From NCBI GenBank assembly GCA_009869945.1, contig WIXG01000246.1:54280-118279 (forward strand): 64,000 bases of DNA. The letters run 5' to 3'. A program made the translations under genes and the position numbers. Positions 28,065 through 62,800 of this stretch are shown here, in pieces. The notes under the pieces were generated by a model, which was not told the origin of the DNA, did not search any database, and saw only the letters and a list, made by a program, of their open reading frames with translations. Position 1 is the first letter of the stretch. The number at the start of each line of letters is the position of its first letter. Source of the stretch: Mesaphorura yosii (taxonomy: Eukaryota > Arthropoda > Collembola > Poduromorpha > Tullbergiidae).

Positions 28065-30099
28065 TCTCGTCAAAGACAAATTGTCACGTTGAAGTGAATG
28101 TAGATTGCGATGAGTTGAAGAGCTCAGCTGAGTCCGGAAGAGTGATGTGTCAGAACGAGACTTAAGATTCGATTTGTCTCACCCTGAAACAAAGAATGAA
28201 ACGAACGCAACTTGAGCTTTTGAACAAATGGTCCAAGTTATAACAATTTCGTACTTTACGTCGCAATTAAGTTACAGTTTGTTGTGGAAGACCATAACAG
28301 ACACTAATTTATACCTTTGAATTATGCATCCGGGAAACTTAGCAAAGCAATTCTGCGTAGTTATGAAAATATTTATGCAGGCACAGGGCGCAGACGACCT
28401 TTGACGGCTTCTTCAACGCAAATCCAAGGTACAATTACGACTGCGTGCTCGAGTACAATTCCACTAAAGATCCGAATAAATGAAGAGAATAAATATAACG
28501 TTCGTGGGGGAAAATTGTCGTTAGAATGCGGGAAGACGAGAATTACTTTTGAGTAACAACTTTGCCAGTGCCAGCGAATACTTGAACTTGAGCTCGACGC
28601 GTGGTTCTCGTAAACTTGCATAATCTCTGCATAAACTCCAGACAAATTGCAATGCAATGAATGGGAAATGGCGGAGTTGCAAATTAATCGGTTTTTCCGT
28701 TCGTCAATCCTTTGCCAACTGCGCACCAGACAATTCGCATAAGCAGGTCACGTTTAGGTCTTATTTGCATGCGAATGAGCAAACGATAAGTGTTAGCAGG
28801 TCCTATTACCTTATTTGCTGTACAATTCATGAAGATGGCACGCTCAGTCGTGGTGATCAAACCATTCGCACAATAGATGATAACAAAACTCAAGCCCGAC
28901 CAGAAAATACCTAGAACCAACTAGGAGACGTGTGCAATTAACTGGCAGATTTCGGAGCTGCATAATGTAGAATCATTTGGATCTTGCGTGCATTCACTCC
29001 ATCCATTTTCCAGGAGCCGAATATCCTTAACTTCAAAAACCAAACCAGGCACTAAAGCGAACCTTGCTGATTCATTTTCACAAGACTACTCTGGGAATGC
29101 ATTAAGGAGGATAACAACATCAGTCACAGTCAATGCTGTCCATGGGGCACTTAAAGATGTCATTCACACACAAAACAAACCACCCACAGAAACCATACGT
29201 TCAAGCCGCCAGTGAGCAAATATTCGCAAATTGCCTGAAGCTTCATTTCGCCATTTCATAAGCGATTCTGTTTCGCATTCGCTTTAATGTCACAAACCCG
29301 ATGGAATTCCTCGCCAACCCGAAGACTGTAAAGCCGAGCCTGGAAGAAGTCGGCCCACAGATGTGCTTCTGGCACGTCCATCTAATTGACATGCCAAACC
29401 TGCAGCCCAGCCGAAGCCGAAGGTTCTTATTTCTAAACTTCTCATAAATACTACTGACTTTTCCACATTAAATTGTTAACGCTGTATCAAATGACTAATT
29501 ACGCATATGCTCGCTCAAAGTTGACAACAGAATCCAAGAACTTCGTTCAACACAATGTGAGAATCTGCGTACATACAATGTAAGGAGAATAAGAAAACTA
29601 AGCGATGATTGTTAACAAACGCACTAAAAACCAGTTTTTAATATATGGCTAAGAATATCGACTTTCACGAGTGGTTTGCCAGGCAGTTACTGACCTTGCC
29701 TGACAATGTTGTCAAACAAGATTCGGGATGTGAGACATTGCTTACCTGTGGAAAGATCAGACTGGGAAATTCTTGCTTCGAAGTAATGTTTACCTTCAAA
29801 GCGCATCATGCGTGTGTTTGTAAACAATTCCAAGAAGTTAATCATCTCGCCCCTCAGTGACTTGGTCCTCAGACAAGTCGACGACGGTTGGACCAGAGTG
29901 ACCTACAAATCGCTTCCTCATTCATTCATTGGAGGGTTGATGCATATGAATTTGTATGTAATACGTTTACAAATTACACTACGACGAAGAAAATAAAAAT
30001 TCTTCGTTGAACACTCGCCAGGGCTCACAATTGCGTGTTAAGCGTTTGTTCTGTCTTATTCCAGAGGCCGAGGATTATGATCGCGGAGTACTGTACTCA
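28065..30099. other. Intergenic, possible small gene remnant
   Basis: No firm gene. A plus-strand frame from ATG at 29645 (about 70 residues, beginning MAKNIDFHEWFARQLLTLPD) could splice at 29782 or shift frame into a second open frame ending near 29996, where an AATAAA lies. No family is recognised and no single model is convincing. The rest is AT-rich spacer. Confidence 0.3.
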
Positions 30100-30107
30100 T
30101 ATAAAAG
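30100..30107 (+). promoter_or_regulatory. TATA box of GT8-PKS fusion gene
   Basis: TATAAAAG lies about 190 bp upstream of the predicted start codon at 30287. The leader downstream contains one short upstream open frame at 30159-30206 (15 codons), which may damp translation of the main frame. Confidence 0.55.
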
Positions 30108-30286
30108 GACCGACTCCATGATCTCTGACTTTAAATCCACTTTGCTTCCTCTTGAGTAATGCATCCTTACTGTTTTTACGAAATCTTACAACTCTCAACA
30201 TATTGACATAGAACTGGACTTACTGGATAGAAAACGTTGAACCTCAGAAACTCGACAGACGTTGAAGTCAAGTTTCCGTCAACGCA

Positions 30287-31387
30287 ATGCAATTGCAAGG
30301 TACTGTTCTCGCCGTTCTCGCTCCTTTCCTGCAGTGCACTACACACGGGAGAGGCATTCGAAGACCAAGAAACTCCAATTTCATTCATTGTGCTGTTTCT
30401 TGTACTTAACTAACAATTTCATAGCTTGCATTTTATAAATTACAGCGAAAACCCAATCTTATGTTACATCCGCGTCCAACGATGAAGAGGCGCTGCAAGC
30501 GCTCGTGTTGTCAAGATCCATCCGCCGAACCTTGAGTTCAAGAAACGTGTCAGTAATTGTGTCTGACGGTGTGTCCTCGTTCTTGAGGTAAGCTTCGGTC
30601 CTAGATTTATGTTTCTGGTTGACCAGCAGTTGAAATGTTAATTCGACACGAATTCGATGATTTTTTAACGAATTTGTCAGATTGATGTTGGAGAATGAGT
30701 TCGACTACGTTTTTGGTGTGTTACCAGAAAGTTTGAAGGAGTATGGCAAGGCATACTTGAAGTACTCTTGCTGGAAGTTGAAGCTGTGGACAAAATGCGT
30801 CCACATTTCTCCAAATTCATTGGTTTTGGAAAATTGCGATCATCTCTTTGATCTGGCCGACTTATCCGTGCTTGCGTATGAGAGTACTGCAAATGGATTG
30901 CGCGGAAAGACAGCGATCAGGTTGTTCGTGTATGAGCCCAACATGAAAACGTTTGGACAATGCTTGAAACATCACAAGCAAGTGATTGCCCGGGCTGGAG
31001 GTGAGCGTCGAACTAATAAGAACAAATTGACTGGAATTCTTACTTAAATTAATTGCCGGTATATTTTTAGGATCTTTGGATGAGCTGGAAGATTTTATGA
31101 ACATTGAAATCGAGGCACTCAAGTTACATCAGTGGAAACAGCTGTCCTTGGCGAGTGCAGATTTGAACAATTCGTAAGTTTCAGTCTTTTAGCTGAACTC
31201 TGGCTCATACTTCGGGTATGGTTTTGACGATACCATGCTCTTTTTTGTGACCAGGAGTGGCGATCCCAAATTGTTGTTCAATGTAACTACTACTGCTTCT
31301 GGGGCCAATGTTCGGCTCATGAAAGACCAAAAATGGAAGGAAATCTTATTCAAAGACGTGCTATCCTCAATAAATGGTTTAGGCGAG
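30287..31387 (+). CDS. Degenerate glycogenin-like GT8 domain (exons 1-5)
   Basis: These five exons encode the N-terminal 237 residues of the fusion. Glycogenins start with a strand and a VLG-S-L helix, then an LHCW-L-YSKCVFMDADTLVL-N-DELF block, an FNSGVFVYQPS block and a GGDQG-LN block. Here the counterparts are QALVLSRSIRRT, YSCWKLKLWTKCV...SLVLENCDHLFD, a block ending LFVYEPNMKTFGQCL, and GSLDELEDFMN. The metal-binding DxD (30808-30816) is Ser-Pro-Asn, the FNSG glycine motif is lost, and GGDQ is replaced. It is therefore probably a non-catalytic pseudo-glycosyltransferase. The last exon splices in phase 0 to the PKS exon (GEG then VDGFRAS region), with a good donor GTACGA and acceptor CTGACAG, so fusion is the simplest reading. 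Confidence 0.62.
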
Positions 31388-34300
31388 GTACGAGAAGAGA
31401 ATATTAATCTCTCTGTATGAATTGGTTTCTATTTTTCGCTTCTGTGTACGCTGACAGGTGGACGGCTTCAGGGCGTCATTGGACAAGTTGCTGGATTCTT
31501 TTGGTTTGCCTGCTCCAAAATTGGCAGGGCTATCCAACAGCAGCCTCATCAAAAACGATTTACTGGACGATGCTGTTGCAATTATTGGAATGAGCTGCAG
31601 GTTCCCTGGTGCAAATAATCCTCAAGAGTTTTGGGATATGCTGGCGGAAGGTCGAGATGGTATCACACCATTCCCTTTTGAGCGCTTGAGCCCGAGGGAG
31701 AAGAGCACTGCAATTCCACCGACGTATGACTGTGGATTCTTGAAATGCCCGGTTGATGAATTCGACGCACGATTCTTCGGAATGAGTCCGCGAGAAGTCC
31801 AATTTGTGGATCCTCAGCAGCGACTCTTATTGGAGGTGGCTTGGGAAGCTCTGGAAAACGCAGGCATCAATCCTCTTACTTTGAAGGGTACGAAGACCAG
31901 CGCATACGTTGGAATTCATATGCTGGACTACCAGAGAATTATCAAGCCGATGGGAGTACAAGAATACCACCATAGCTATCTTGGTAATTGCTTCAGCGCT
32001 ACTGCGTCTCGAATCTCATACTTCTTGGGATTGGTCGGGCCGAACGTCGCAATTGAAGCGGGCTGTGCATCTTCAATGGTTGCTGTTCACTTGGCGTGTG
32101 AGAGCCTGAAGCGTGGAGAAAGTTCGTTGTCACTTGCAAGTGGAGTGAACTTGATACTCAAGAGGAATGAGAAGTCTGGCTCAACTTTAATGGCGGTGCT
32201 CTCACCGGATTGCAGAAGCAAAACATTCGACGAATCCGCAAATGGCTTCGCTCGAGCTGAAGGTTGCGGTACGCTCGTTCTGAAGAGACTGGGCGATGCA
32301 CTTCGAAGTGGAGACAACGTGATTGCACTGATTCGAGGCTCTGCGGTCAACAACGATGGTCCTGGCCAAAGCTTTGGAACTCCGAGTTCGGCGTCCCAGG
32401 AGCGAGTCGTTCGTGAGGCGCTCCTGTCTGCAGGGATTAATCCTGCCGAAGTTGGTTATGTGGAAGCGCACGGAACCGGCACAGCAGTTGGTGATCCTCT
32501 AGAATTTCATGGACTAGCAAACATCTACTCAGCTTCTGAAAGAAAAGAACCGTTGATGATCGGTTCAGTTAAAACCAACATCGGACACACGGAGTCCGCG
32601 GCTGGCATCGCAGGAATTATCAAAGTGATCCTTTGTATGCAGAACAAAGCAATCCCTCCTCACCTGCACCTGAAGAAGCTCAACCCGAGAATCGATTTGA
32701 GTCTGATCCCTGCGAAAATCCCGACACGATTGACAGAATGGAACTTGGGTACTAAAATAGCTGGTGTCAGTTCATTCAGCATGAGTGGCACAAGTACCCA
32801 CGCAATAATTCAAGAAGCCCCGCCCATTGTGACAGCTACTGTTCAACAGGAAGAAGGCATATTGGGAACTGGGGATCTGCAACACGTCACGATTTCAGCA
32901 AAGACAGAAAGATCACTCGAGAGCTTGATTGCGAAGTACGTGGAATACTTGTCACAGAACCCAAACACGTCGTTGGAAGACTTGGCGTACACGCTGAATC
33001 AGTGCAGAGCGCATTTCCCTTATCGAACAAGTATTCTGGCGTCAACTATTTCCGAGCTCCAAACTTCCCTTCAGAATCGTTCGTACACCATTCAACATGT
33101 GCCCAACACAGGACGAAATAAGATCGGCTTTCTCTTCACTGGTCAAGGATCGCAGCACTTTGGAATGGGGAAGAATCTTTACGAAACATCTCTGCCATTC
33201 CGTGTGGCTCTGGATCGGGTGGCAGTCTTGTTCGAGTCGTACTTGCACAAGAATCTGCGAGACGTCCTTTGGCATGACGAGACGCTTCTTGGAGAAACCA
33301 TTTATTGCCAACCTGCTATCTTCTGCATCGAGTATGCCCTGGCTCAACACTGGATACGGCTTGGGCTTCGACCGGACTACGTACTCGGACACAGCATCGG
33401 CGAGTTCAGTGCCACGGTTTGCTTGGGGCTGCTGTCTGTGGAGGACGCAATGAAATTGGTGGTTGAAAGAAGTCGACTGGTGAATACCTTGCCGAAGGGA
33501 CGGATGCTGGTTCTAAAAACCAGCCCTGAAAATGCGAAATCATTGATCACACGATTCCAAGACGAACATAAAGACCTCGACGGGATGGATGTTGCGGCTG
33601 TAAATTCAACCAACGAAGTCGTCGTCTCCGGCACAATTAAGTCCATCAATTTGTTTGAAGAGTTTTGTCTGCAAGAAAAAATACGAATCCACAAACTGGC
33701 TGCATCACACGCTTTCCATTCACGACAGATGGATCCTGTTATGCACGAGTTTGGAGAGATCTGCAAAACCGTAACTTACAACGAGATGTCAGAACAAGTA
33801 AGTTACATTTCGGGAACGTACGCAAAACGGATGAAAACTTCTGACTTCGAAGTATCGCAGTATTGGAGTGACCACCTACGCCATACAGTGAACTTTGCCA
33901 AGGCCGTGAAGCTGATGAGCAAGTCCGGGTGCAATGTATTCTTAGAGACTGGACCCCAACCGGTGCTTTTGGGTCTTGCAATGGGGAACGTGGATTACTC
34001 AACCAACAACGTATTCTGCTTCAGTATGAAATTGAAGGAGCAAGACTGGACTTTGTTCATGAATATGCTGAGCAAGCTATACTTGGCTGGAGTCAGCTTC
34101 GATTTGAATGCACTCTACAGGCTTCATGGACGGCCAAATCGACTTCAGCTTCCGACGTATGCTTTCGACAGACAAAAATTTTGGTTTGTCGATGAGGAAG
34201 ACACAATTGATCAGGATGTGCACAAAATAAGCAAACGACCGGTGCATCCCATTCTTGGAACCCAAATGCGGACACCCTTCTCCGAACAGCTTTATACGTC

Positions 34301-37300
34301 CAAACTGTCGGTACGCCACCTCGAATATTTGAGTCACCACAAAGTTTGTGACCACGTAATTCTTCCTGGCGCCGCGTTTTTGGAGGCCTCATTGGCAGTG
34401 GGAAGAGATATCCTAAACGGAGACGATCGATCGCCATTGATGGTGCAAGATTTGCAAATTGCAGCTGCTTTGTCACTGCAATCAAATGTCCTGTTGGAAA
34501 CCGTGGTGAAAGTGCGCAGCTGTGAAGAGATTGCTCACGAAGGAATCCAATACGAAATATCATTCAAACGACCTACATTGAACGATACCTGGAAACATCA
34601 CGCAAACGCGCTCTTCACTCCTGGAGCATCATTACCCGAACAGCGTACGATAAATGTAGATGCAACAAAGGCTAGACTTCAATTTAAAAATGAAGATCGT
34701 CTCAACAAATTATACAAGAAGATGACATCAATGGGGCTGGAGTTCGGGTCCAACTTTCAGAGCATCTCACGCGCGTGGACGAACTCAACTGAAATTCTTG
34801 CTCAAATCGAATGGCCAAAGTCTCAATCGAACGATGCGTACATTTGCCACCCTATCGTTTTGGACGCCATGATTCAGACATTTGCTTTTGGATTTGCACT
34901 TAATGAGACGACGAATGAAGATAGGAACGCCAGCGAAGACAAATCTCTGCGACTTCCCTTTGCAATTCGAAAATTCATCTGGTTGGCGAAACCACTGACA
35001 CCAACCTTGTACGCACACGCTTCGATTGGCACGGATGGCCCTGAGAGCGGAGATGTGTCCTTGCTCGACGAGTTTGGCAATTGCATCGCAATCATGACTC
35101 AACTGGAACTTGTGAAAGTGAGGCCGGACACGTTCGAGCGGAATTTAATTGCGGACAAAACTCCTTTGCCTGGCTTTTACTCCAAGATTTGGAAACCACT
35201 GAAAGATGCCAATGATCTTAAGGATGCACCAACTCAAGTGGACGAAGTCGGGCAAAATTCAGCAAACACTTTGGAAAATGGCTTCGATAAAGCCGTGATT
35301 TTATTCGACACTTCCGCCGCACCCAGCAACGATTCTCGAGCCTTGTTGAAAAAACTGTCGGTCCGACTGAACGAGAAGGGAAATCTTGTGATCTTCGTCA
35401 ACCATTCAAATTCACCACAGCTTCAAAGTGTCTGTGCTGACAGGTTCCAAACACTGGAGTTTAAAATGGACTTCACAAGCAAGTCGCACTTCGAAGAGGT
35501 CTACGCTTTGATTAAGGGCGAAGTGGGAAAAACGACCCAAAAGAAATTGGAAGGAATTTTTTACTTCTGCACCGAAAACAGTACCGAAGAATCTCAGATG
35601 GAAGAAATTCGTAAGGTCTCCTGCAGTGGCCTGCTGAACTTATGCCAGACCGTCTTCCACAATACAAAAGGCGACGCTGAGACAGCTCAAACAAAACAAA
35701 AATTCGACGTCGTCACGAAGGGGGCTTGGAGTGATGATGAGCCAGGATATCCCAACAACGCTCCACCGTGGGGGATCATGAAGAATTTCTTCAGCGAGTA
35801 CCAACTCGTTGACGCGAAAATCGTTGACATTGGACTCCACGAAAAAGTCGATGAAACCGTGGATCAATTGATGTCGAGCTTTAGCCGTATGGATGACGAG
35901 AAATTTTTGGCTATCAGGGATGGCACGACATACACGGAGCGATTACGCAACCTACCAATCACCTCATCCCCGTTGACAATCCCGAATGTGGATAGATACA
36001 CTGTGGTCGTACCTTCGACTGGCACCATTTCTGACCTGCAAGTGAGCCCATGCAACAGAAGACCCGTGACCACAGGAAGCCACGTTGAAGTTGCGGTCAG
36101 AGCAGTAAGCCTCAACTTCCACGATCTCATGACGATTCTGAAACCTGACGGTTTTTACGAAGCCTCTCCATCGACTAAGGATGACATTGGCATGGACTTC
36201 TCGGGAATTGTTGTTGCGGTTGGCTCAGATGTTAAGAATTGGTCGGTGGGTGATGAAGTGATTGGACTCACAACACATGGATTCCAGAGCCACGTCGTAA
36301 TTCATGAAAATTGTTTGATGGCGAAGGGAAAGCAAGTAACATTCGCCGGGGCCTCAACGATTCCGTGTGTTTTCATGACAAGCTATTATGCACTTGAGGA
36401 GATTTCACACATTTCCGCGAATGATCGGGTGCTCGTTCATGTGGGCACAGGAGGAGTTGGTCTGTCAGCCATTCAAATAGCAAAGTCCGTCGGAGCCGAT
36501 ATCTACACAACAGCCGGGACGAAGCGGAAACGCGAATACTTACGTTCAGTCTTGGGTCTGAAGAACATTTACTACTCCAGAAATACAGACTACGGAGAAC
36601 AAATTATGAGGGACACGAAAGGCGCCGGAGTGACTATTGTTCTCAACTCTTTGACTGGCCCGAATTTCAAAGAAACCACTCTTGCTTGTTGTGCTCCTGG
36701 AGCTTCGTTTGTGGAAATTGGCAAAATCAACACTTGGACGGAAGACGAAGTCCGGTGCCTGAGACCGGATGTCAAATACACGATCGTGGACTTGTACCCA
36801 AGAATCATACAAGGCGAGAAAGACGAATTGCTCACAAAATACATGCGCAGAGTACTCCCCGAACGACTCGAAGCCAACATAATCACCGAGCTACCACGCA
36901 CGACATTTGCGCTGGAGAGAATTCGAGACGCGTTCGGGTATTTGCAGAAAGCAAAGCATGTTGGAAAAATTGTTGTCAAGATGCCCCAGCCGAGACTGCA
37001 TTTGGACACGGGAAAGTTTTCCTTGACGCATGAGTACTTCGACGCTGAGTCCACTTACTTGATCACGGGTGGGCTGGGTGGAATTGGAATTGAAGTCACC
37101 AAATGGATGGCTGAGACAGGCGCTAAAAATATTGTTCTTGTTGGCCGAAGTGGACCCACCCCACAAACCGCAAAGATTTTAGACGACGTGAGATCGACCG
37201 GCTGTAACGTTCTCACCTGGAAAGCTGATGTTAGCAGCTACGACGAATGTCGAAATCTTTTGGACCACATAAAATCAACGACCGAATTACCACCGCTTCG

Positions 37301-39474
37301 AGGTATTTTCTTATCCACAGGGACAATATCGGATGGCCTGATTTCAAATCAAACATGGGAGAAATTTCATTCATCATTTAAGTCTAAAGTGGATCCCGCT
37401 TGGAATTTACACAAGTTGACAGCTGGCTATGATTTGGATTTCTTTACAATGTTTTCGTCGATGTCTTCGAGTGTCGGGACAGCAGCCCAAAGCAACAACT
37501 CAGCAGCATGCACATACCAAGATTCAGTGACGAAGTACAGATTGGCAAAGGGGCTGGTCGGTGCCACTATCAATTGGGGTGCGTGGAGCGACGTTGGACA
37601 GGCTTCGAATGCTCGAATGGGAATGGAAGGACTGTTTGGCTTTAAGGCAATCACGGCAGGGCAAGGCATTCGTGCTCTGGAAGAGTTTCTCAGTCAAAAT
37701 CTTACTGACGCTACAGTCATGGAGGTGGATGACTGGAATCGTCTTCATTCAACATTAAACAACGGCAAGTTTTTGGCTGACGTGATTGTGTCACGTGAAG
37801 ACGCGTACAGCAGGCAGGACCAGGAAAGGCTCTGGAAACTTATCGAGGACTCGGCAAACGACAATGAGCGCCAACTGAACTTGGAAGCATACCTCGAACA
37901 CACAGTCAGAAGCATGCTGAAATTAAGTCATTCCGACACTGTTGACCGAGTAAGTCTTGGCATTTCGGGAAGGTACTTAGAATTAAGATCCTTAAATAAA
38001 TGCTCAAATTCTGCTTTGACAGGATCAAGAAATGAGTGAGCTCGGAGTGGACTCCTTGACAGCTATGGAACTACGAAACCACCTGCAGAAGATGCTTGGA
38101 AACAAAGTCGTGACAGTGAACGCGCTGCAAGAAAATAGAAACATCAAGAAGCTCGCCGCACATCTTGCAAGTCTTCTCAATACGGGAAACACTGACAGCC
38201 GAGCATCACTGACGGAGCTGATTCAATCAGACTGTCTCCTACCAAGTGACATCACCATTTTACCTGACACCCTGCCGCCAGTGCCCAGATCCGAATTCAA
38301 AACAATTTTTCTGACGGGAGCAACCGGATTTCTTGGGTCCCATATTGTTCACGAGATTTTGACCAAGACTACAATGAGAATAATTTGTCTGATACGCGCG
38401 GAGTCAGTGGAGGAGGCTCACGAGAGGCTGACCAAAACATTCGTCAAGTATGGATTGCCTGTTGACAACCTTCCATTTGAACGACTGACGTTTGCCCTCG
38501 GCGACGTTATTAAGGAGAACTTGGGATTGGTCCCTGAAGAGTATGACTCGGTCGCACTGAGCTCAGATGCGATTATTCATTGCGCCGCCAAAATGCATCT
38601 TCTCGAACTGTACACGATGTCTGACCGCCCGAATTGCTTACGCCGGGTGAATTACGTTGGACTTACAAATGTTCTGAGACTTGCTGTGGGTCGGAAGGTT
38701 AAGTCATTCTTCCACCCGTCGTATTTGACGGTCTCAACATCCGTCACAAAAGATGGATACCTCACAGAAAGATTTCCAACAGTTCAGGATTACACAGAAG
38801 AACTTCAGAACGGCTACGTCATTTCGAAGTTTGTCCAGGAGGTGTTGATATCCCAGTTGGCGGATTTGGGGGTACCTTGTACAGTACTGAGATTCGCTGG
38901 TCTGTGGGGAAATGAGTCGTCCAGCAAGGCACACAAGCAAGTGTTTACTCACGTTGGAAGTTTTCTCAAGGCTTGCATCGCTTTCCGAAAGTTTCCAATG
39001 TTTCACGTTGAAGATGCCAATGAGAACGACGGACTTCCTGTAACTTTGGTGGACGCCGCCGCCGAGACGATGGTGCAGATTCTTCAGTGCTCCACAGCTG
39101 AGCTGGGTGTGTACAACTACATCAACAATTTGGACAAATTCAACGTGGTCACACAATCGTGTCTGATGGAACTGATGACTGACCATGGGCTCGAGTTTGA
39201 ATTTCTGGAGGCGAAGGATTGGAGAGACGCGGTATTCAACGAACATAACGAGAAGTTAAATTTCCTGCTTCCGTTCAAGTACTTGTACGAAGACACTGAC
39301 ACTGGACTGCGAATCTTCGAAGCGCATCCTCTTATCAAAGAGAATCGGAAGCTTGCCAGATTTGACACGGCGTTTTTGGACAAGCTCCGCAGGAACTTGC
39401 CAGATTTACCGCCGGCACGATTGACGGCGAAGGAAATTATGATGTATTACTATGATGACGTCTTGAAAAAATAG
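30287..39474 (+). CDS. Glycogenin-like GT8 / reducing PKS / reductase fusion
   Basis: Seven exons are predicted: 30287-30299, 30446-30587, 30681-31000, 31071-31173, 31255-31387, 31458-37949 and 38023-39474 (2884 residues, all phases consistent). Residues 1-237 resemble glycogenin GT8 (ALVLSRSIRRT; YSCWKLKLWTKCV; SLVLENCDHLFD), but the DxD position reads SPN and no acceptor Tyr is seen. Then: KS (Cys in GCASSM ~440, HGTGT, NIGHTES), AT (GHSIGE, Ser ~883; HAFH suggests malonyl-CoA), DH (His ~1198 in HKVCDHVILP; HPIVLD), psiKR, ER (~1754-2081, GTGGVGLSAIQ), KR (TGGLGGIG; catalytic Tyr position Asn), ACP (GVDSLT, Ser ~2412) and thioester reductase (TGATGFLGS; YVISK ~2666). No methyltransferase or thioesterase is seen. 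It probably makes a reduced acyl chain released as aldehyde or alcohol. The 13-nt first exon is the weakest part. Confidence 0.85.
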
Positions 39475-39533
39475 GCAGATCAAGGTCATGACATGTTTAC
39501 ATGCTCATAGCTGTAATGCGCATATTTAAACAC

Positions 39534-39550
39534 AATAAAATTGCAATAAA
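39534..39550 (+). terminator. Poly(A) signals of GT8-PKS gene
   Basis: Two AATAAA hexamers, at 39534 and 39545, lie 60-75 bp after the stop codon. Confidence 0.75.
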
Positions 39551-39798
39551 AATTGATCCTGATTGTGACAAACTTCAAAGAGTAGGCGCAGCCATAATGA
39601 TGGGGTGCAGCCTGTGGGTCGTATGCTACCAGTTCGAATACCACAAATTTGAACTAAAATACGAATGCGAATCGGCCATACGTTCGACGAGACACAAGAT
39701 CGAATGCACTACGAGCAACAGTTTAATTAGTTCGACCCAGCAGGTTTGAAGACATGAAATCACTTTTTTGACACGTTAAGCCATTAAAGTCATTAGTG

Positions 39799-39920
39799 GT
39801 AATGCGAGACAATCTCGACAGAAATAGTACGGGTTTGAAGAGCTTGGACTGGAAACAATTTTCTGGGAACAATTCTCCTAGAACAATTGTGATAAACAAT
39901 TGTCGGAAACAAATTTCCTC
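39799..39920. repeat. Dispersed repeat with CTGGAACAATT subunits
   Basis: The segment starts GGTAATGC, continues with GACAATCTC and GACAG, then has short tandem units like GGAAACAATTTTC and GGGAACAATTCTCC. The same order occurs at 63377-63475, so this is a dispersed, probably transposon-derived, repeat. It lies just downstream of the PKS gene. Confidence 0.6.
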
Positions 39921-40239
39921 GAAAAATCTGCTCTGTTCAAACGTCGAACTTAAGATATTTGAACTAGTGAAGTGATGCGCCTGCATGTACATTGACCAAT
40001 AATATCTTGATGGTTATTTTACTGTAATTATAAAGCACCGTCAGCCTTCGAAAATTTTAAGACATTCACTATTTGACTCACATAATTGGGACTTGCAAAA
40101 TAGTAGGATTTGGAACCTGGCAGCACATTTGATCCTTGCCGTTTACTTTGTTCAAAGAATTGAAAGAAACCATTTGAAGTTTTTGAATAGCACAATTCGA
40201 AGGCAATATTTTCTTGTTCTATTGTTAGTTTGAACATTA

Positions 40240-45515: not shown

Positions 45516-45908
45516 ACGGAGATTAACTGCCCGTTTTGAGTGAAGTGAAACTATCTGAGCAAATCTAACCTACTTCAGAGAGTAGTTGCTAACAATAGTA
45601 GTGAATAGCAGGTTGGACTTGTTAATAGGCTAGTAGTAAAGCGACGAATCGACTGGACTGTCAACCGAAGCTGATATTAATTACGTAAGTGGCTTAACTT
45701 CAGATATTGGTGCATACTGACTGGGATAAAATCATGTCACATTGACTTAGTTTACGTTGCTTTATATCTTACCTTCGTATCAGATCGCAGGCGTCTTCGC
45801 CTTGCCTACTCCTAATCTTCAATCGGTTCTGTTATTTTTCTACCGATTCAATAATGTTCACTATTGTGTATAGGCACTTGGTTAACTAAGCGGGTTTTGG
45901 CACTCGCG

Positions 45909-48788
45909 ATGTCTACCGGCCCACGAAATGTCAACATTCAGATCCCAATGCAATTGACGTATACGACAAGTTCACAAGCTGTTATTGGAGTTGGTGGTAC
46001 GATCAACAGCAGCAGCGGGCAAATCAGTGGCTTCACGTCAATTCTTCCTAATCCAAACCCAAATAATGTGAGAATTCTCCCTTCTCAGTACACACCAGGA
46101 CAATTACAAAGTGGGGCAATTAGTGGTCAGCTCATCCAAGGGTCCTACGTACAGCAAAACAATGTCACCATAAGTCCACTGGTTAATCAGAACTACGTTA
46201 TTTCGACACCAACCCAAGTATATCTCCAATCCAGACACATGATGGAGGATGGTAATGCAATTACAATCCATCCCAATGATCTCGGGCCGCCTGAGCCAAA
46301 TCCAGCCGGGGAGAACCGTTTGAAAGTTGAAGATGCGTTGAACTACTTGGATCAAGTCAAGTACAAATTCAGCACCCAACCACAAGTTTACAATGACTTT
46401 CTGGACATTATGAAGGAGTTCAAATCTCAAAGCATTGACACTCCTGGCGTCATAACGAGAGTCTCCAATCTTTTCCAAGGCCACCCCGAACTTATTGTGG
46501 GATTCAATACATTTTTGCCACCAGGCTTCAAAGTAGAAATTTCATATGGGGCTGGTCAGAATCAAGGCCGTTACACAGTGACAACGGTGCAAACGGATCC
46601 TCATGGTGGACCAGATGAAGTTCATCCAGAGCTCGGGTCTGCTCGAACAATTCGGTCAATTAATACAGAATCTGGCCGAATGTACAACGGAAACAACAGC
46701 CGCGCATCTCCTCCACCTTCAGGAGCTGTTGGAGGAGGAACAAATTTTGATTGCATCAGCTTACAAAATCCACCGACGGGAGCGGAGTTTAACCACGCTG
46801 TAAATTATGTAAATAAAATCAAGGTATGTAAAGGAAGCTGGTAGATATTTTCAAATATTTTACCATTGTAAAACCGCAGGGTAAGGTCTTCAAACTTTGA
46901 CCTTTGTCCTTTCCAGAATCGGTTTAATGAACAGCCTGAAAAGTACAAGCAATTCCTGGATATCCTGCAGCTGTATCAAAAAGAGAAGAGAAGTGTAAAC
47001 AAACATTTGACAGAAAAAGAGGTGTTCTCGCAAATGGCTAAGCTATTTGAGAATCAAGAGGATTTGCTGCAAGAATTCCGCCAGTTCTTATTGCCAGAAG
47101 CTACGCATAATCAAAATATGGTAAGAACATATTATATTTTTGCCATTTTCGTCTTTAAATTGTATTAAAATTAATGACTAAAGCCCTACTTCCTTCACGT
47201 AGACGATCAAGAACGTCATCGATCAAGCTAAAGAAACTGCCAAACTGAATGGAGACAAGCCAACGGGTCGAAAGAAACCGGTCATATCAGCGGCCAAGCG
47301 GCGTGCAGGAGCAAAACAAGGGCAAGCAGCTCCAACTATAAAACGTAGGAAGTCGTCGGTAACTGAGCCACAGATACCTACAGGCAGAGCAGAACTACCA
47401 GACTACGGAAATCCAGCTGAAATTGACCTATTTTCCAAGGTTAGTTTGATCATGTTTAAGACCCAATTTCAACAAGTCATAACGGCATGATTTTAACTTC
47501 TCCAGATACGCAAGGCAATGACTGGGGCTAAATACGATGACTTCCTTCGAAGTTTGAAATTGTATAATGATGGCGTTCTTCATCGATCTGAACTACTAAG
47601 CATGGTCAAGCCTGCGTTGTCAAAACTTGGCAACGGTAATTACTTCCAAGCATTCAAGGAATTGCTCAGTGGACAAGCTGTGGAAGAACCAGCAGCACCC
47701 AAGAGTCCACCTCCCAGAGTGTCCAAACCATCAGAATTAACCTTCGAGCTGATTGGTATGAAGTCAATTTATCGTGATAGCAGAGACGTCACGAGTTTCT
47801 TACTTATATCAACTTATTCCTGACAGACGCTGCAAATTGTAATCGGATTGGAACCAGCTACGTCGAACTTCCGAAGGGCCACTGCCCAACAAAAGCAAGT
47901 GGGAGGTCAGAGCTGGACAATCTCGTCCTGAACGAGACTTGGCGTCTACGACCATCAGACAGGGCGGAAGTCGGGAAACCAACCAAGACCAAGAAGCATG
48001 ACTTCGATGAATACGAGCTGATTTATGAGGAAGAGAGATATGAGGTAAGTCGCCTGGAATCTTTAATTTTTGTAAGCTTGAATACGCAATACTTAACAAA
48101 ACCCAATTTTTTTCAGTTGGACATGATAATGGAACCAAATGCGGCCACAATTCGTGGTCTAGAAGAACTTGCAAAGAAAATGTCACGCATGACTCCGGAG
48201 GAGTTGAAAGTGTTCCGGTTGGATGAGACCCTTGGTGGAAAATCTGAAGTCATTCACCAGAAGGCAATCCGTTTGGTTTACGGAGAGGAAATGGGCCCCA
48301 AAATCATTGAAGGAATGCGGAACGTACCCCAAGTTGCAATTCCACTCGTCCTTCGCCGCCTTAAGGATAAGGACAGAGAATGGCGGACGGCTCAGAAAGG
48401 CTTTAATCAAGTGTGGCGCGAGCAATTGGAGAAGTTTGGCGCAAGTTCAACAGACTACAGCACCGCCAGTACGAAGAGTAAACACAATGACCCCAAAGAG
48501 AAGGAACCAAAAGCAAGTAAGGCGGCTACTGCAAAGGAGGCGAAAGTGGATAGAGTGGTAGAAGTTGTGAATTTAGTACTTGATGAAGTGAGTCATATTT
48601 GTAATACTGGTAATTGGTAGTGATTTGGAGTTTACACCTGTGCCTGATGTAATACTTTTTGGCCACAGGTCCTAGCAGCGCCAGAAACTGCTCCGCCAGA
48701 GCCTGCATCCATGCAGAAGGGAAAGACACCAGCAGCTGTGGAATTGGAGTCGGACATCAACGACAAGCAACCCAAAGAAAGCACGTGA
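45909..48788 (+). CDS. Sin3-like corepressor, C-terminally truncated
   Basis: Seven exons are predicted: 45909-46823, 46917-47120, 47203-47439, 47506-47755, 47827-48044, 48117-48587 and 48669-48788 (804 residues; Sin3A is about 1270). After a Gln/Ser/Asn-rich start come PAH1 (~138-209: LKVEDALNYLDQVKYKF, then FLDIMKEFK and LFQGHPELIVGFNTFLP), PAH2 (~295-370: AVNYVNKIKNRF, FLDILQLYQKEK), a Lys-rich linker, PAH3 (~440-505), then the HDAC-interaction region (LPKGHCPTKASGRSELDNLV, LNETW, ERYELDMIMEPNAATIRGLE, RLDETLGGKSEVIHQKA, KGFNQVWREQ). Sin3 scaffolds HDAC1/2 complexes in the nucleus. Directly after the WREQ helix the similarity ends, and a Lys/Glu/Ala tail runs to a stop. The C-terminal third is absent and nothing like it follows. 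The first ATG sits downstream of a probable acceptor at 45873, so a 5' UTR intron is likely. Confidence 0.85.
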
Positions 48789-56623: not shown

Positions 56624-59600
56624 TCAATAGACTTGTCTTGCCATCACATTCACGACAGATGTGAGATGATGATGATTGTAGTATTCGTGGTATTGCGATT
56701 GATGCTGCTGCAGTTGTTGGATGATTGTGTCAGTCGGCAGCAAATGAGATGATGAAACAGGACCTGGATTTATATTTTCAGAAATTGTGCTCGTGCCTGT
56801 GCCTGTGGCAGCCGCTGCGGCTGACGTGAACGTGGGATTAACATTGGGCGACGATGATGACTTCACATGGGTGGGCGCCGGAGTGCCTGGGCTATGAAGT
56901 TGATCCTGTGCTCTTGGCCCACCGCCGCCACGCTGGTGATAGCCCGTTGATCCAGGAGCTGGATTATAGCCATGTGCGTGTCCCTGTCCCTGCGAGTGAG
57001 TGTTGTGCGTGTGCATGCCAAATTCGTTCTTGATGGAGAGCGACAAAGGAAGCCGATCCAAATGGGGGCCGTTGTATCCGAACGCGGATGAACCCTCAGC
57101 GTGCAGTCCGTACCCACTAGTCCGGCTTCCACCGCCGACGGTGCCTGGCATCCCTCCATTGCTGCTCCCGTTCGAGTCCATGGAGATGAGATGCTGCAGC
57201 ATCCCATTCGCGTACTCCTCCGAGCCATCCCTGAAAAAAATTCCGGATCAATTTCAGGTCTACGCATGAAGAAATCATTAATTCAAGAAGTTGCCCCAAA
57301 TTCCAGTGTTATCTTAATTACAGGAACTTGTCCTGTCTTTGTTTTGTTTCTGCTCAACGTGATTCATATTCTACCAAATAATATTGAATGACAGCACGGC
57401 GGAAGCAGTCACGGCTTCCAGCATCACGAATCACAACTGTGTCACGCTCATCAGTCAGATGCAGTCGCATCAAGCGCACATCTTCATTGTACAGTAAACA
57501 TTAAGAATAAGGACGTGTTTTACTATTATTACGATGATGGAACCATTTATTTGCTCATTATCAACTAGTCACCATAAAATCGAATAAAAATACCAAGCAG
57601 ATCGTAACTTCGCAATAAAAATTCTCGTTGAAGCATGAGAAAGTGCGAATGAGCCAGTTCTCAAAGTCTGGCAACTTAAATATGACTCCAGCTCGCTGAG
57701 TCGCATGGGTTCAAGTTTGCAAACATCAGCGGCTTGCATCACGACGCATTTTACATTTTCACACGAATAGGGCGCTCAGGAAGGCAAGTCTCGTCTTATT
57801 TCGTGTCTTCTGCCACTGAAATTTGCAACAATTTAACATTTAACCTTCTTTTGGATTTCTGTTTAGGATGTGCTTATTCTCAGCCGCGTTTCATGTGCAC
57901 TTGTGTGCGTGGTGATTTACAAGCTGAAAATATGAAATCTGAGCTCGGATCTTGTAATCTTCGGCAATCTGGACCCGCTTATGAGTATTTTCATTGGAAA
58001 AGGGAACCCAAACTTAAATTCTTTGTGCTCTGGCGTTCGGGTGGAGATTTAAAGACTTTCTCAGTTTCGGTTCCTGCTCCTAAACACCACAACCTGTTGC
58101 TCTGCTGCACAATGCTGCTCCAGGACATCTGCAAGCAATGTTAATGAACTGACTGACTTTCGCTTTCCTCTTTCCAACTCTGCATAAAATTCGATGCCCT
58201 CGGTCGGCTTGTACCCGACGGCAAAGGCCAAAGGCAGAAGTCTGGTTTGTTAATCAAGAAAAATGGCCCGTCACGTTGTAGTGTGGTGAACATTTGCCCA
58301 ATGAGGCATTAATCATTTTCAGTTTAGCGTGGCGAAATGTCATTTTGGCCCTTTTTTATGGGCATTGATCCACAGACGGATGGAATGGAGTACAGATGTT
58401 TTGAGCCTTCAAGGGTTCAACTGTACAACAAACTGAGCCAAGCCAGTGCCCCTCGGCCGGCTTTGGTTGACTGACCACCGGAATGAGAATGACAGCGAAG
58501 AAAGTGAGAAACACGGTCTCAGATTCTGATTCTGAGAATTGCATGAAATCTCATACACACATGAAAGAGAGCGAACAGCAAAACCGTGCTTGCTTGGGAT
58601 TCAGTTACACGATCCAACGACCAAACTGGTAATGGATATTGTTCGAATTCGAAGGGTCTCCGCTTGTAATTATTGCCGTCCCACATGTGAACGACCATTA
58701 ACTCCTTTGTTTTTAGTTTATGCGCTTAGATTGGTCAAGCACTTCAGGTCCAGGCTAGGGCAATATTACCTTGACTGTGACGGTGTCCGATCACGTTGTC
58801 GCTTGTTCTTGAACCAATTGCTCACTTGCGTTAGCGTGAGTCCAGTCATACGAGCAAGGGTCCGCTTTTCGTCCGGCGTTGGGTATCGATTGCGCCGGTA
58901 AAACTCCTTCAGCGCGTTCCTCGACTTCTCCTTGAAGCAGTACACCGTCTCTTCGCCATCCCAAATGGTCCGGGGCAGCGGATGCTTGCGTCGAAGTCTG
59001 TACTTCTCCACTGCGCCTAAGGAGCGACCACGAATCTTCTCGGCTTCCTTGTAATGGGCAGCGTACCAAAGTTTCTGCAGTTCTTCGTGGTGCCTGCAGC
59101 AAATTACCATTACGTGTCATGGATTATTGCAGGTGCGCTTCATTGCAAGGCTGGAAATGGAAATCCTGGAATTAAAACCGGAAACGACCTTACCTGTTTG
59201 AGAATTCGTATGACTCGATCAGCTTGTACATGTCATTTAGTGCGTCTTTCGCAAACAGTGCAAACACTTTTGCCCTGATCACAGACTCGGATCCATTTTG
59301 CATTTCGCGTGGTAATGACAATAGAAGATGGTTTAAACGATTTATGTTGCGTTCCTGAAGCAGAGCTTCGCACAGACAAGAGACTTGGGTGGCTGTGAAT
59401 TGAAACGGGCCAGATGACCCGGCGTCCTGCATTCTGCTGATGTCTGGGCCGTGCATGAGAATTTTATCTGGCGAAGAGCTGGACAATTGAATCAGTGACG
59501 AGTTGGCTGAAGTGGGTGGCGAGTTTTCGCGATCTGCCACCGAACCACTTCCACTTTTCTCCCCAATCGTTGGGTGGGGAGAAGAAGACTCGTCAATTGT

Positions 59601-59807
59601 GAGCTCAGAACCTGAGTCAGCATCCATGTCGGGGTCGTGACGATCACGCAGGTTGTTGAAAGACCCATTTACTTGCAATGCACTCAAATAAGGGCTTGAG
59701 ACCGATCCTGCTGGTGGCGGCGGCGAGTACGAGTACGGAGCACTGTATCGGTCATCACGGACTCCAGATCCGACGGAAGCAATTGAATCGTAAGCGTAAC
59801 CACTCAT
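56624..59807 (-). CDS. Six4: SIX-class homeobox protein Six4
   Basis: Three exons are predicted on the minus strand: 59194-59807, 58770-59093 and 56624-57230 (514 residues). An N-terminal Ser/Pro/Asp-rich region (~135 residues) is followed by the SIX domain ([18 protein letters not shown], then [15 protein letters not shown], then [20 protein letters not shown]), and the homeodomain ([20 protein letters not shown], then [18 protein letters not shown]). The homeodomain lacks the usual Arg5 and has WFKN, both typical of SIX proteins. Six4/5-type residues at the SIX-homeodomain junction favour Six4 over Six1/2 or Six3/6. The C-terminal exon is Gly/His/Gln-rich and poorly conserved. Six4 acts with Eya in muscle and gonad development. 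The intron 57231-58769 is long and probably regulatory. The upstream codon TTG at 59819 is not a start; ATG 59807 is used. Confidence 0.93.
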
Positions 59808-62800
59808 GGTCTGATGCAATGGCGATTGAATGCAATGGAATTAAAGTCCTTAAACTGGAGTCGCCAATGGACGGGCAAATTGGGAGATATTGCGAGCATT
59901 CACTGGATTCGCGATGTGATGAACTCACTTGCACTTGAAATCCAAGATTTAGAGAACATTCACTTTGTTTTGCAATTTGCAAGTGAAGCGGAAGGGAAAC
60001 TGAGACAAACTGAACGACGCGACTGCGACTCGCGATTTGTTGATGCCTGCTTAAGTCTATCGTGAGACAATTTTCTCACTTGTGCGAGTTGCTTCGTAAT
60101 AAATTTTTCTAAAAGAACTTGAAAGCTACAAAGTACAAAGAGTAGTGTGTTATGCCTATATTGACAGAGGCTGGGATGCTGATCGTGAGTGCAAGTGAAT
60201 GGTGGAGGCTTGAGCTTTGAGTTTGGCCTGAAACTCAAACTCCGGAAAATAAAGATCGTTGAATCCGATCCAACAGGCAGGCAGGGGATGGAGGATTCGT
60301 GAAATGGGTGGAGATCCCGCTCCGGTGCAGGATCTGGTTGGGTGGCAGAGCAAATGGTGGATGGAACCCTTTTCGTTCTCGTTTTTCAATTTTCTCGAAC
60401 AATAGCACACAACACACAGGAAAGCTGCTTATTGTTGAAGGATTACAGATTACAAGCGTATAAACTGGTTATTTTACTGATAAAGAGTGAGTCGGGCTGA
60501 AAGACGACACTCTAGATAATTAAACCATTCGTGTCGCGCAGATTTGAATTTAATGGAGAAGCGGGTTCACAATTTAAGTATTACTTTGGAAATTGTCCTG
60601 GAACTTGGAAACATTTCGCTCAGCTTCGACTCAACTGAAACGAGCGAGAATTTTTAACTTTGCTCTTGCGTTGTCAGATATTTGATACCCCGATTTTTTG
60701 TCTTCGGTTAGTTTTTAAGAATGATTCACAATTCCTAATAATTTTCACACAGCCGTCGTAATTAGAAATGGCAAATGGACAAGACTCGTTGAATGTGAGA
60801 ATTATGTCTTCTCTTCCGTGCAAGTCGTCGCGTTGCTGGTTTTGATACGTTGCTTTGCTGTTTACATGATTTCCGTCAGCCATTTCGGATAAGAAGTAGA
60901 AATATGACGCTCTTTGGCTATGGAATTACGATTTCTTCGAATTTTCTTTGTCATACGCGTTTATTAAGCAACCTGGAATTATCTGCCACCGCCTCTGCTC
61001 CAAATTAGTTGCGGGGGCACACGGAACACCAGCGAAAGACGGATTCCCTCTTATGAGTGAGCATACGAGCAACTAACATTTCATTTTATCTCATCACATA
61101 TTTCGTTGTCCCTTTTTGTTTGTATTTTTCATTTCATTTCGTTTTCCGTCTCCGTGCTCTATGCTTTACGCTCCGAGAGTGCGAAATAAAGTGTCAGATT
61201 TCAATCATTTTCAAGGGGCGCATGCAACCAAGCCAGCATAGCATGAAGGAAAGGCAAGGCAAAGGCGATGCAGCGTACGCGAGAACTTGCACACGAACAT
61301 GAAAGTCTTGGTGAAAGACGAATAGGCGAAGGCTCAGAGGCGTGTTGAAGGGTGCTCCAACGCGTACTCGTGCTGTAGTGGGATCAAATTGACAAGATTC
61401 TCGTAAGTCGTAAGTACTTGTTAGGCGTAACTGAATAACGCTCAAGTGGTGTCAAGTATCCAATTTAATATGATTTGTGTTGTGTGCTCGGTGATTTTCT
61501 CGATGCGGCGGTGCCGGGTCCATCCAACTTTACTTTTCACCAACCTTATTCTAGTTCTGCTGAATCCTACGGCAGCCCGTTGCCTCCACGCCGCAGTTCT
61601 GCAATTAGTCGGAGATTATAAATTAGTCGCACACAGATGGGCAGATTAATTAGTTGTTGAACAACAACCCAACCAAGCAAACTCGAGCAGCGAAGCCAAG
61701 ATTTAATGAACTAAACTCTTTATCGCATAAATAATCAATTTGCAGGGGGTTGAATTACTAACGACGATGGTGATGACTGCCAGTGCCTTCATGAAGGAGA
61801 GCACAAGTCGGAATCGGAACTGCAGCACAGCGCAGTGAATCAGTGAAGACAAGAGAGGGTGTCGTATTTCACTCTGGACAATAATGATGACACTTGGGAA
61901 TTCCCCTATAACAAATTACATTTATGATTCACATTTTTCTGTGCTGCTCTGTGCCTGACCGTGGATAATTAGCCGTTATAAATAAGCGACCAGCGAGTTT
62001 TGCACGTGGGCTCGAGTACCGAATTCTTTCGTTCATTTTAAGAGCAGCATATCGCTCCAGCTCGGCGATGGAAACACGGGGTATGGAAACTGAACTCGAT
62101 TGTCCTGTTGAGTGGCAATGGCAAGGTATTTCGTGGTCAAGTACACGGATTATTTCCATTGTTAATCCAAGAGTAAGTAGTAACAATATTATTCAAGATG
62201 AGTACACATTCTTCCAACCATGTAATACGTTCACGGTACACGTAATAATCCAGCCCGACCTTTTCTGTTTAGCGTTCAGCAGTTAACACCATGTTACATG
62301 TTGTGCTGTTCATTTTAAGCCCGCACCCTTCATTGCTCATTTCAGATCAGATCTTGTTTTCGCACTTCACACAAAAGATTAAGTTCACACCATACAAATA
62401 AAATAGGCATGGGCAGGCAGCAGGAAAAGGTTCAATCGTTCAACGGAGCTGCGTCGCGACACGATAAAAATAGGGCACCGCATTTGCAGCACCGAAAAGA
62501 CCATCGCGTCACTGGAAATTATGAATATCCGTCCGACAGCCGAATTAACTGTCATATGAAATCCTTACATAATAGTTATGTTTGTGCTGAATGCTGATGT
62601 GTACGCGACCAACGTGGTTTTAACAGTTTGTCAAGAGTCGAGGGTGACAAATGATGCGACGGAAAATTATGGTTATCCAATACGGACGGACGCTGCGCTC
62701 GGTTCAGGTGTTGTTTACTTCATATATGTGAACAAAAGAGGCTAGAAGGGCAGGGAAGACAGGGATTATTATGTTGTCAAGTTCATTGAAGTTCTTTTGT

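Follow-up and report, generated by a model that had tools for sequence, protein, structure and literature searches.

A predicted glycogenin-derived pseudoenzyme domain at the N terminus of reductase-ending polyketide synthases in the collembolan Mesaphorura yosii

The 64,000-nucleotide stretch of DNA analysed here (the window) carries on its + strand a single predicted gene of seven exons, which runs from an ATG at 30287 to a TAG ending at 39474 and encodes 2,884 amino acids (Table 1). All exon bounds of this model are of the GT-AG type, and the joined exons translate without an inner stop up to the terminal TAG. The first five exons encode approximately 236 residues that resemble glycogenin, a family 8 glycosyltransferase (GT8), and are followed by a linker and the body of a polyketide synthase (PKS), such that the model reads in phase through a GT8-like domain and then KS-AT-DH-ER-KR-ACP-TR. 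Upstream of the gene lies a candidate TATA box; within 29801-40000 the + strand has no other match to TATAAAA[GA]. Downstream of the PKS, the window also contains matches to PAH and the SIN3 co-repressor (45855-48620, + strand) and to SIX1_SD (59190-59840, - strand). Together with 66 matches to the RR cuticle family, which marks arthropods, the SIN3 and SIX1_SD matches indicate an arthropod host; searches for COX1, 5.8S rRNA and a telomere pattern of tardigrades gave no match.

Table 1. Features of the predicted GT8-like/PKS gene, in window coordinates
Feature	Position	Strand	Basis
TATA-like box, TATAAAAG	30100..30107	+	consensus match, 187 bases upstream of ATG
Exon 1	30287..30299	+	start codon, inferred
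Exon 2, N-terminal part of GT8-like domain	30446..30587	+	spliced model, paralog alignment, profile E 7.2e-13
Exon 3, GT8-like domain core	30681..31000	+	spliced model, paralog alignment, profile E 1.5e-21
SPN at glycogenin DxD metal-site position (human 102-104)	30808..30816	+	phmmer, alignment
Exon 4, GT8-like domain	31071..31173	+	spliced model, paralog alignment; not significant by itself
Exon 5, GT8-like domain end, last helix KWKEILFKDVL	31255..31387	+	spliced model, paralog alignment
Exon 6, linker and PKS body KS-AT-DH-ER-KR	31458..37949	+	spliced model, Pfam
KS (ketoacyl-synt N and C domains)	31569..32672	+	Pfam
AT	33129..33971	+	Pfam
DH	34245..35126	+	Pfam
ER	36081..36977	+	Pfam
KR	37050..37592	+	Pfam, alignment
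Asn at KR catalytic Tyr position	37497..37499	+	aligned to Tyr of mycocerosic acid synthase and EryAI KR1
Exon 7, ACP and terminal thioester reductase (NAD_binding_4)	38023..39474	+	Pfam, joined model
Two AATAAA signals, just past the stop	39534..39550	+	motif match

Searches with the N-terminal region recovered chiefly glycogenins. In a phmmer search of the PDB set, residues 7-169 matched glycogenin-1 (E 2.9e-14), and 19 of the 21 sequences among the matches listed for the window N terminus were glycogenin-1 or -2. A profile constructed from the N-terminal domains of six PKS genes of this genome, with no glycogenin included, resembled glycogenin-1 and -2 over their catalytic domain, matching glycogenin-1 with an E value of 6.4e-37 (profile positions 1-229 of 248; chain residues 24-283); among the matches listed for this profile 19 of 20 are glycogenins, the other being a Skp1 galactosyltransferase (1.1e-10). 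The glycogenin block order that an earlier note had read in the exon translation is supported. When the window sequence was removed from the profile, exons 3 and 2 ranked first and second of the 2,119 window frames scored, all at least 20 amino acids long (E 1.5e-21 and 7.2e-13; next 1.3). The glycogenin encoded by the same genome, used as a lone query on these frames, likewise detected exon 3 (1.1e-11) and exon 2 (1.6e-6; next 3.9), and its spliced alignment to the region scored 205, against 33.5-56 for 20 shuffled queries. The exon 4 frame alone gave an E value of 32, and neither exon 4 nor exon 5 is significant singly; hence, the last third of the domain, which they encode, is assigned by phase, splice sites and paralogs. 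The Pfam model Glyco_transf_8 (PF01501), which the earlier note had put forward as a check, did not favor its reading: it matched none of the six PKS N-terminal domains, although these match glycogenin itself strongly in the phmmer and profile searches, and upon adding the genome's own glycogenin to the six, one of the seven members matched (3.1e-22). A genome search with this model returned eight places, with the glycogenin on contig C264 at the top and the six PKS genes absent from them. DUF5424, the sole Pfam match of the N terminus, fell below the cut-off (E 0.039 and 0.035) and was rejected.

Spliced alignment with paralogous queries from contigs C135 and C731 supports most of the exon boundaries. 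The boundary 30587/30681 was recovered by both queries; that from C135 also recovered 31000/31071 and 31173/31255, and that from C731 the phase-0 junction 31387/31458. Mis-splicing was seen with the C731 query in parts of exons 3-4 and with the C135 query at the 31387/31458 junction. The five small exons that had been placed upstream of the PKS hold as a GT-AG model, as does the phase-0 entry claimed for them. In the window, the open frame of KS starts at 31455 and contains no ATG until 31590, a position already within the KS core; given that no fitting ATG precedes the core, the upstream exons are needed as the source of one. As a predicted gene structure, then, the observation of a glycogenin-like domain reading in phase into a PKS is confirmed.

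When the N terminus was used as a query on the same genome (93 Mb), the search detected, in addition to the C264 glycogenin, stretches upstream of KS on contigs C632, C135, C851, C225 and C731, and in spliced alignments the domain is in phase with, and upstream of, KS in each of these five paralogs. The GT8-KS order, which the earlier note had suggested seeking in relatives, is thus present, within this one genome, in at least six PKS genes on six contigs; as only the best candidates were scored, six is a lower bound, and the recurrence of the order on six contigs indicates that it is not a misassembly. Weak further places were found on C262 (E 7.5) and C251 (E 0.25). The last helix of the glycogenin-like domain lies with KS in a single open frame in C731 and C632 (WLHVYAQDILP; WVQLYQSVMSDLP). 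The exact splices close to the domain end vary by query for C135, C225 and C731, and in C135 the first GT8 exon must be followed by an intron of 2.4 kb. All five paralogs have in common an intron behind the strand that bears the metal site, and this intron is absent in the window. For C851, a single exon running without a break from the domain to KS was also considered; this reading was dropped in view of a probable in-frame intron of 84 bases and of the shortening of its domain, which is missing the C-terminal third.

In the window and the three paralogs scanned with Pfam (C851, C731 and C632), KS, AT, DH, ER, KR and ACP follow one another in order; the ACP is matched in two of the three paralogs, and the third, C851, displays the ACP Ser motif in the alignment. 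All three scanned paralogs contain a methyltransferase (MT) between DH and ER, and Pfam detects none in the window between 35126 and 36081. The gene terminates in an NAD_binding_4 reductase, with no terminal TE detected by Pfam. The active-site motifs of KS (Cys and His), AT, DH, ER, ACP and TR are all present in the window. At the position of the catalytic Tyr of KR, four paralogs could be aligned (C851, C731, C632 and C225), and these have His. The window has Asn, which suggests a possible partial decay of this copy.

The GT8-like domains have lost the NSG and DGGDQ motifs of glycogenin and, where it can be aligned, the metal His, and they keep in part the positions of the donor contacts Lys86 and Asn12. 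Both motifs are present in the genome's own glycogenin and absent in all six PKS domains, and the metal His position is altered in all five domains that align there; the Lys86 equivalent is retained in the window and C135, and the Asn12 equivalent in four of the six. The region around the autoglucosylated Tyr195 aligns poorly across the PKS domains. At the DxD metal site, where the genome's own glycogenin has DAD, the six domains read SPN (window, in agreement with the metal-site loss claimed for it earlier), PPN, DSN, HPC, HPH and HPR; none of these is an intact DxD, with C135 (DSN) retaining the first Asp only. His occupies the position equivalent to Asp102 in three paralogs, and the Asp102His substitution is reported to abolish autoglucosylation in human glycogenin-1, the same report stating that the DxD occurs in all family 8 enzymes (PMC5203857). 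The six domains, in which fold positions are retained, share 18 invariant positions (T12, A23, L26, S29, V43, V47, S48, L55, D60, W83, V92, S98, L101, N103, D105, F108, P138 and F143), and the paralogs are 24-33% identical to the window in the GT8-like domain as against 49-61% in KS. Given the absence of an intact DxD and of NSG and DGGDQ, the domain is, by sequence, a pseudoenzyme of glycogenin descent, attached to a PKS that ends in a reductase; in a further departure from glycogenin, the PKS takes the place of the linker and synthase-binding region.

A tree of KS domains was computed from 17 rows of this genome (of 36 KS matches; each of the remaining 19 spans the model incompletely) together with 45 of 80 bacterial loci. 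The 80 bacterial KS show 44-54% identity in the best segment. Eight KS of the genome, those of the six fusion genes and of C627 and C799, constitute one clade (SH-aLRT 100), and the genome's FAS-type KS constitute another (SH-aLRT 100). C627 pairs with C731 and C799 with C851 (SH-aLRT 93 each, under the tool's star of 95), placing these two domain-free genes on separate branches of the eight-gene clade. With E set for 2,000 sequences and a profile that includes the known members, no GT8 exon was detected upstream of C627 and C799 as far as the contig ends, nor any such domain upstream of the upper C641 KS gene or C444 (4.0 and 6.7 kb), the best E value over all four being 0.46. Both C627 and C799 have a Met shortly before KS, unlike the window frame. 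The distribution of the GT8 label on the tree requires three changes, two of them forced by starred branches, which may correspond to one gain and two losses, other histories also being compatible with the tree. As the domains align over most of their length a single gain is favored, and we infer one fusion before the duplication of this PKS family, followed by loss in two of its eight descendants. The tree further contains six FAS-type KS genes (C927, C354, C682, C841, C908 and C155), three of them close copies, a high number of FAS genes for a genome of 93 Mb, and three more non-FAS KS genes (two on C641 and one on C444) on long branches outside the eight-gene clade.

In its architecture the PKS body is comparable to reducing type I PKSs with a terminal reductase of the fungal or bacterial kind (KS-AT-DH-(MT)-ER-KR-ACP-TR), from which it differs in having a pseudo-glycogenin at its N terminus and, in the window copy, in lacking the MT. 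Like the animal FAS-like PKSs (AFPKs), it is a type I enzyme of an animal whose PKS body begins with KS (PMC10764717). It probably differs from them in its KS, which lies apart from the FAS-type clade of the same genome (support 100, in a tree of bacterial KS and those of this genome); three scanned paralogs possess an MT, and the enzyme ends in TR rather than TE. A terminal TE as in FAS is described as usual but not universal in AFPKs, and R domains have been noted in a few arthropod sequences (PMC10764717). The AFPK study analysed KS domains only, such that an N-terminal extension would have escaped it, and its main text mentions neither glycogenin nor glycosyltransferase (PMC10764717); nor are these mentioned in the text of a study on the mite Archegozetes (PMC7542773). 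Among the matches listed in a search of titles and abstract openings of the open-licence literature we found no published description of a glycogenin/GT8-PKS fusion, though such an absence is not proof.

The start of C627 and C799 at KS could be taken to indicate two adjacent genes, or a chance string of in-phase exons, rather than one protein. We regard this as scarcely credible, given that the same order is seen at six loci, that domain and KS share an open frame in C731 and C632, and that the window KS frame lacks an ATG ahead of its core. It is also unlikely that the domain is a functionless, decaying leftover kept open by chance: while its apparent absence from C627 and C799, its shortening in C851 and the low identity of the paralogs' domains would be in line with decay, six diverged copies remain open and in frame with 18 invariant positions, and the splice position after the metal-site strand is common to five of the six.

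The interpretation in the earlier note, which is partly supported, had named a dimeriser and a sugar-nucleotide or glycogen anchor among possible roles. The domain could alternatively still bind a sugar, sugar nucleotide or glycogen, and thereby tether the PKS to glycogen or a sugar substrate. The six-domain profile covers the entire glycogenin catalytic domain, the Lys86 equivalent persists in the window and C135, and C135 preserves the first Asp of the DxD; nonetheless, we consider such a tether decidedly improbable. With DxD broken, and NSG and DGGDQ missing, in all six domains, a sugar-nucleotide role is unlikely, and the metal His is altered wherever it can be aligned. Glycogenin is reported to bind glycogen synthase through a C-terminal region some 34 residues long (PMC9188544), whereas only about 38 residues separate the last helix from the start of KS in the window, leaving little space for such a region. 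Judging from length only, the synthase-binding region would be absent, and anchoring to glycogen via glycogen synthase is disfavored.

We instead propose that the pseudoenzyme is probably a folded cap before KS, with a role in stabilizing the KS dimer, in setting its orientation or in docking a partner, in a PKS making a reductase-released acyl chain. The KS-AT-DH-ER-KR-ACP portion would assemble the acyl chain and the terminal reductase, as suggested by the domain order, would free it as an aldehyde or alcohol; the Asn in KR renders the degree of reduction of the chain unsure. The presumably inactive GT8-like domain would then act as a structural or docking cap, most likely by steadying or orienting the KS dimer, since KS forms dimers and glycogenin does so too. 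The dimeric state of glycogenin is documented (PMC9188544). Two of the eight members of the clade are without the domain, suggesting that the PKS can do without it, and its lower conservation relative to KS would also fit weak constraint.

More tentatively, these genes could represent a novel type of megasynthase in animals: an inactivated glycogenin would be built in as an N-terminal module that sets the geometry of the KS dimer, docks a partner, or serves to load or sense a substrate, and would have become fixed in one lineage of arthropods before its PKS family expanded. Such a protein would combine, in an animal, the fold of a carbohydrate primer with an assembly line for polyketides. A single arthropod here possesses eight related PKS-type genes, six of them with an extra domain that is invisible to Pfam. 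The fusion offers a testable case of pseudoenzyme recruitment and could serve to mark out a PKS family hidden in the genomes of arthropods.
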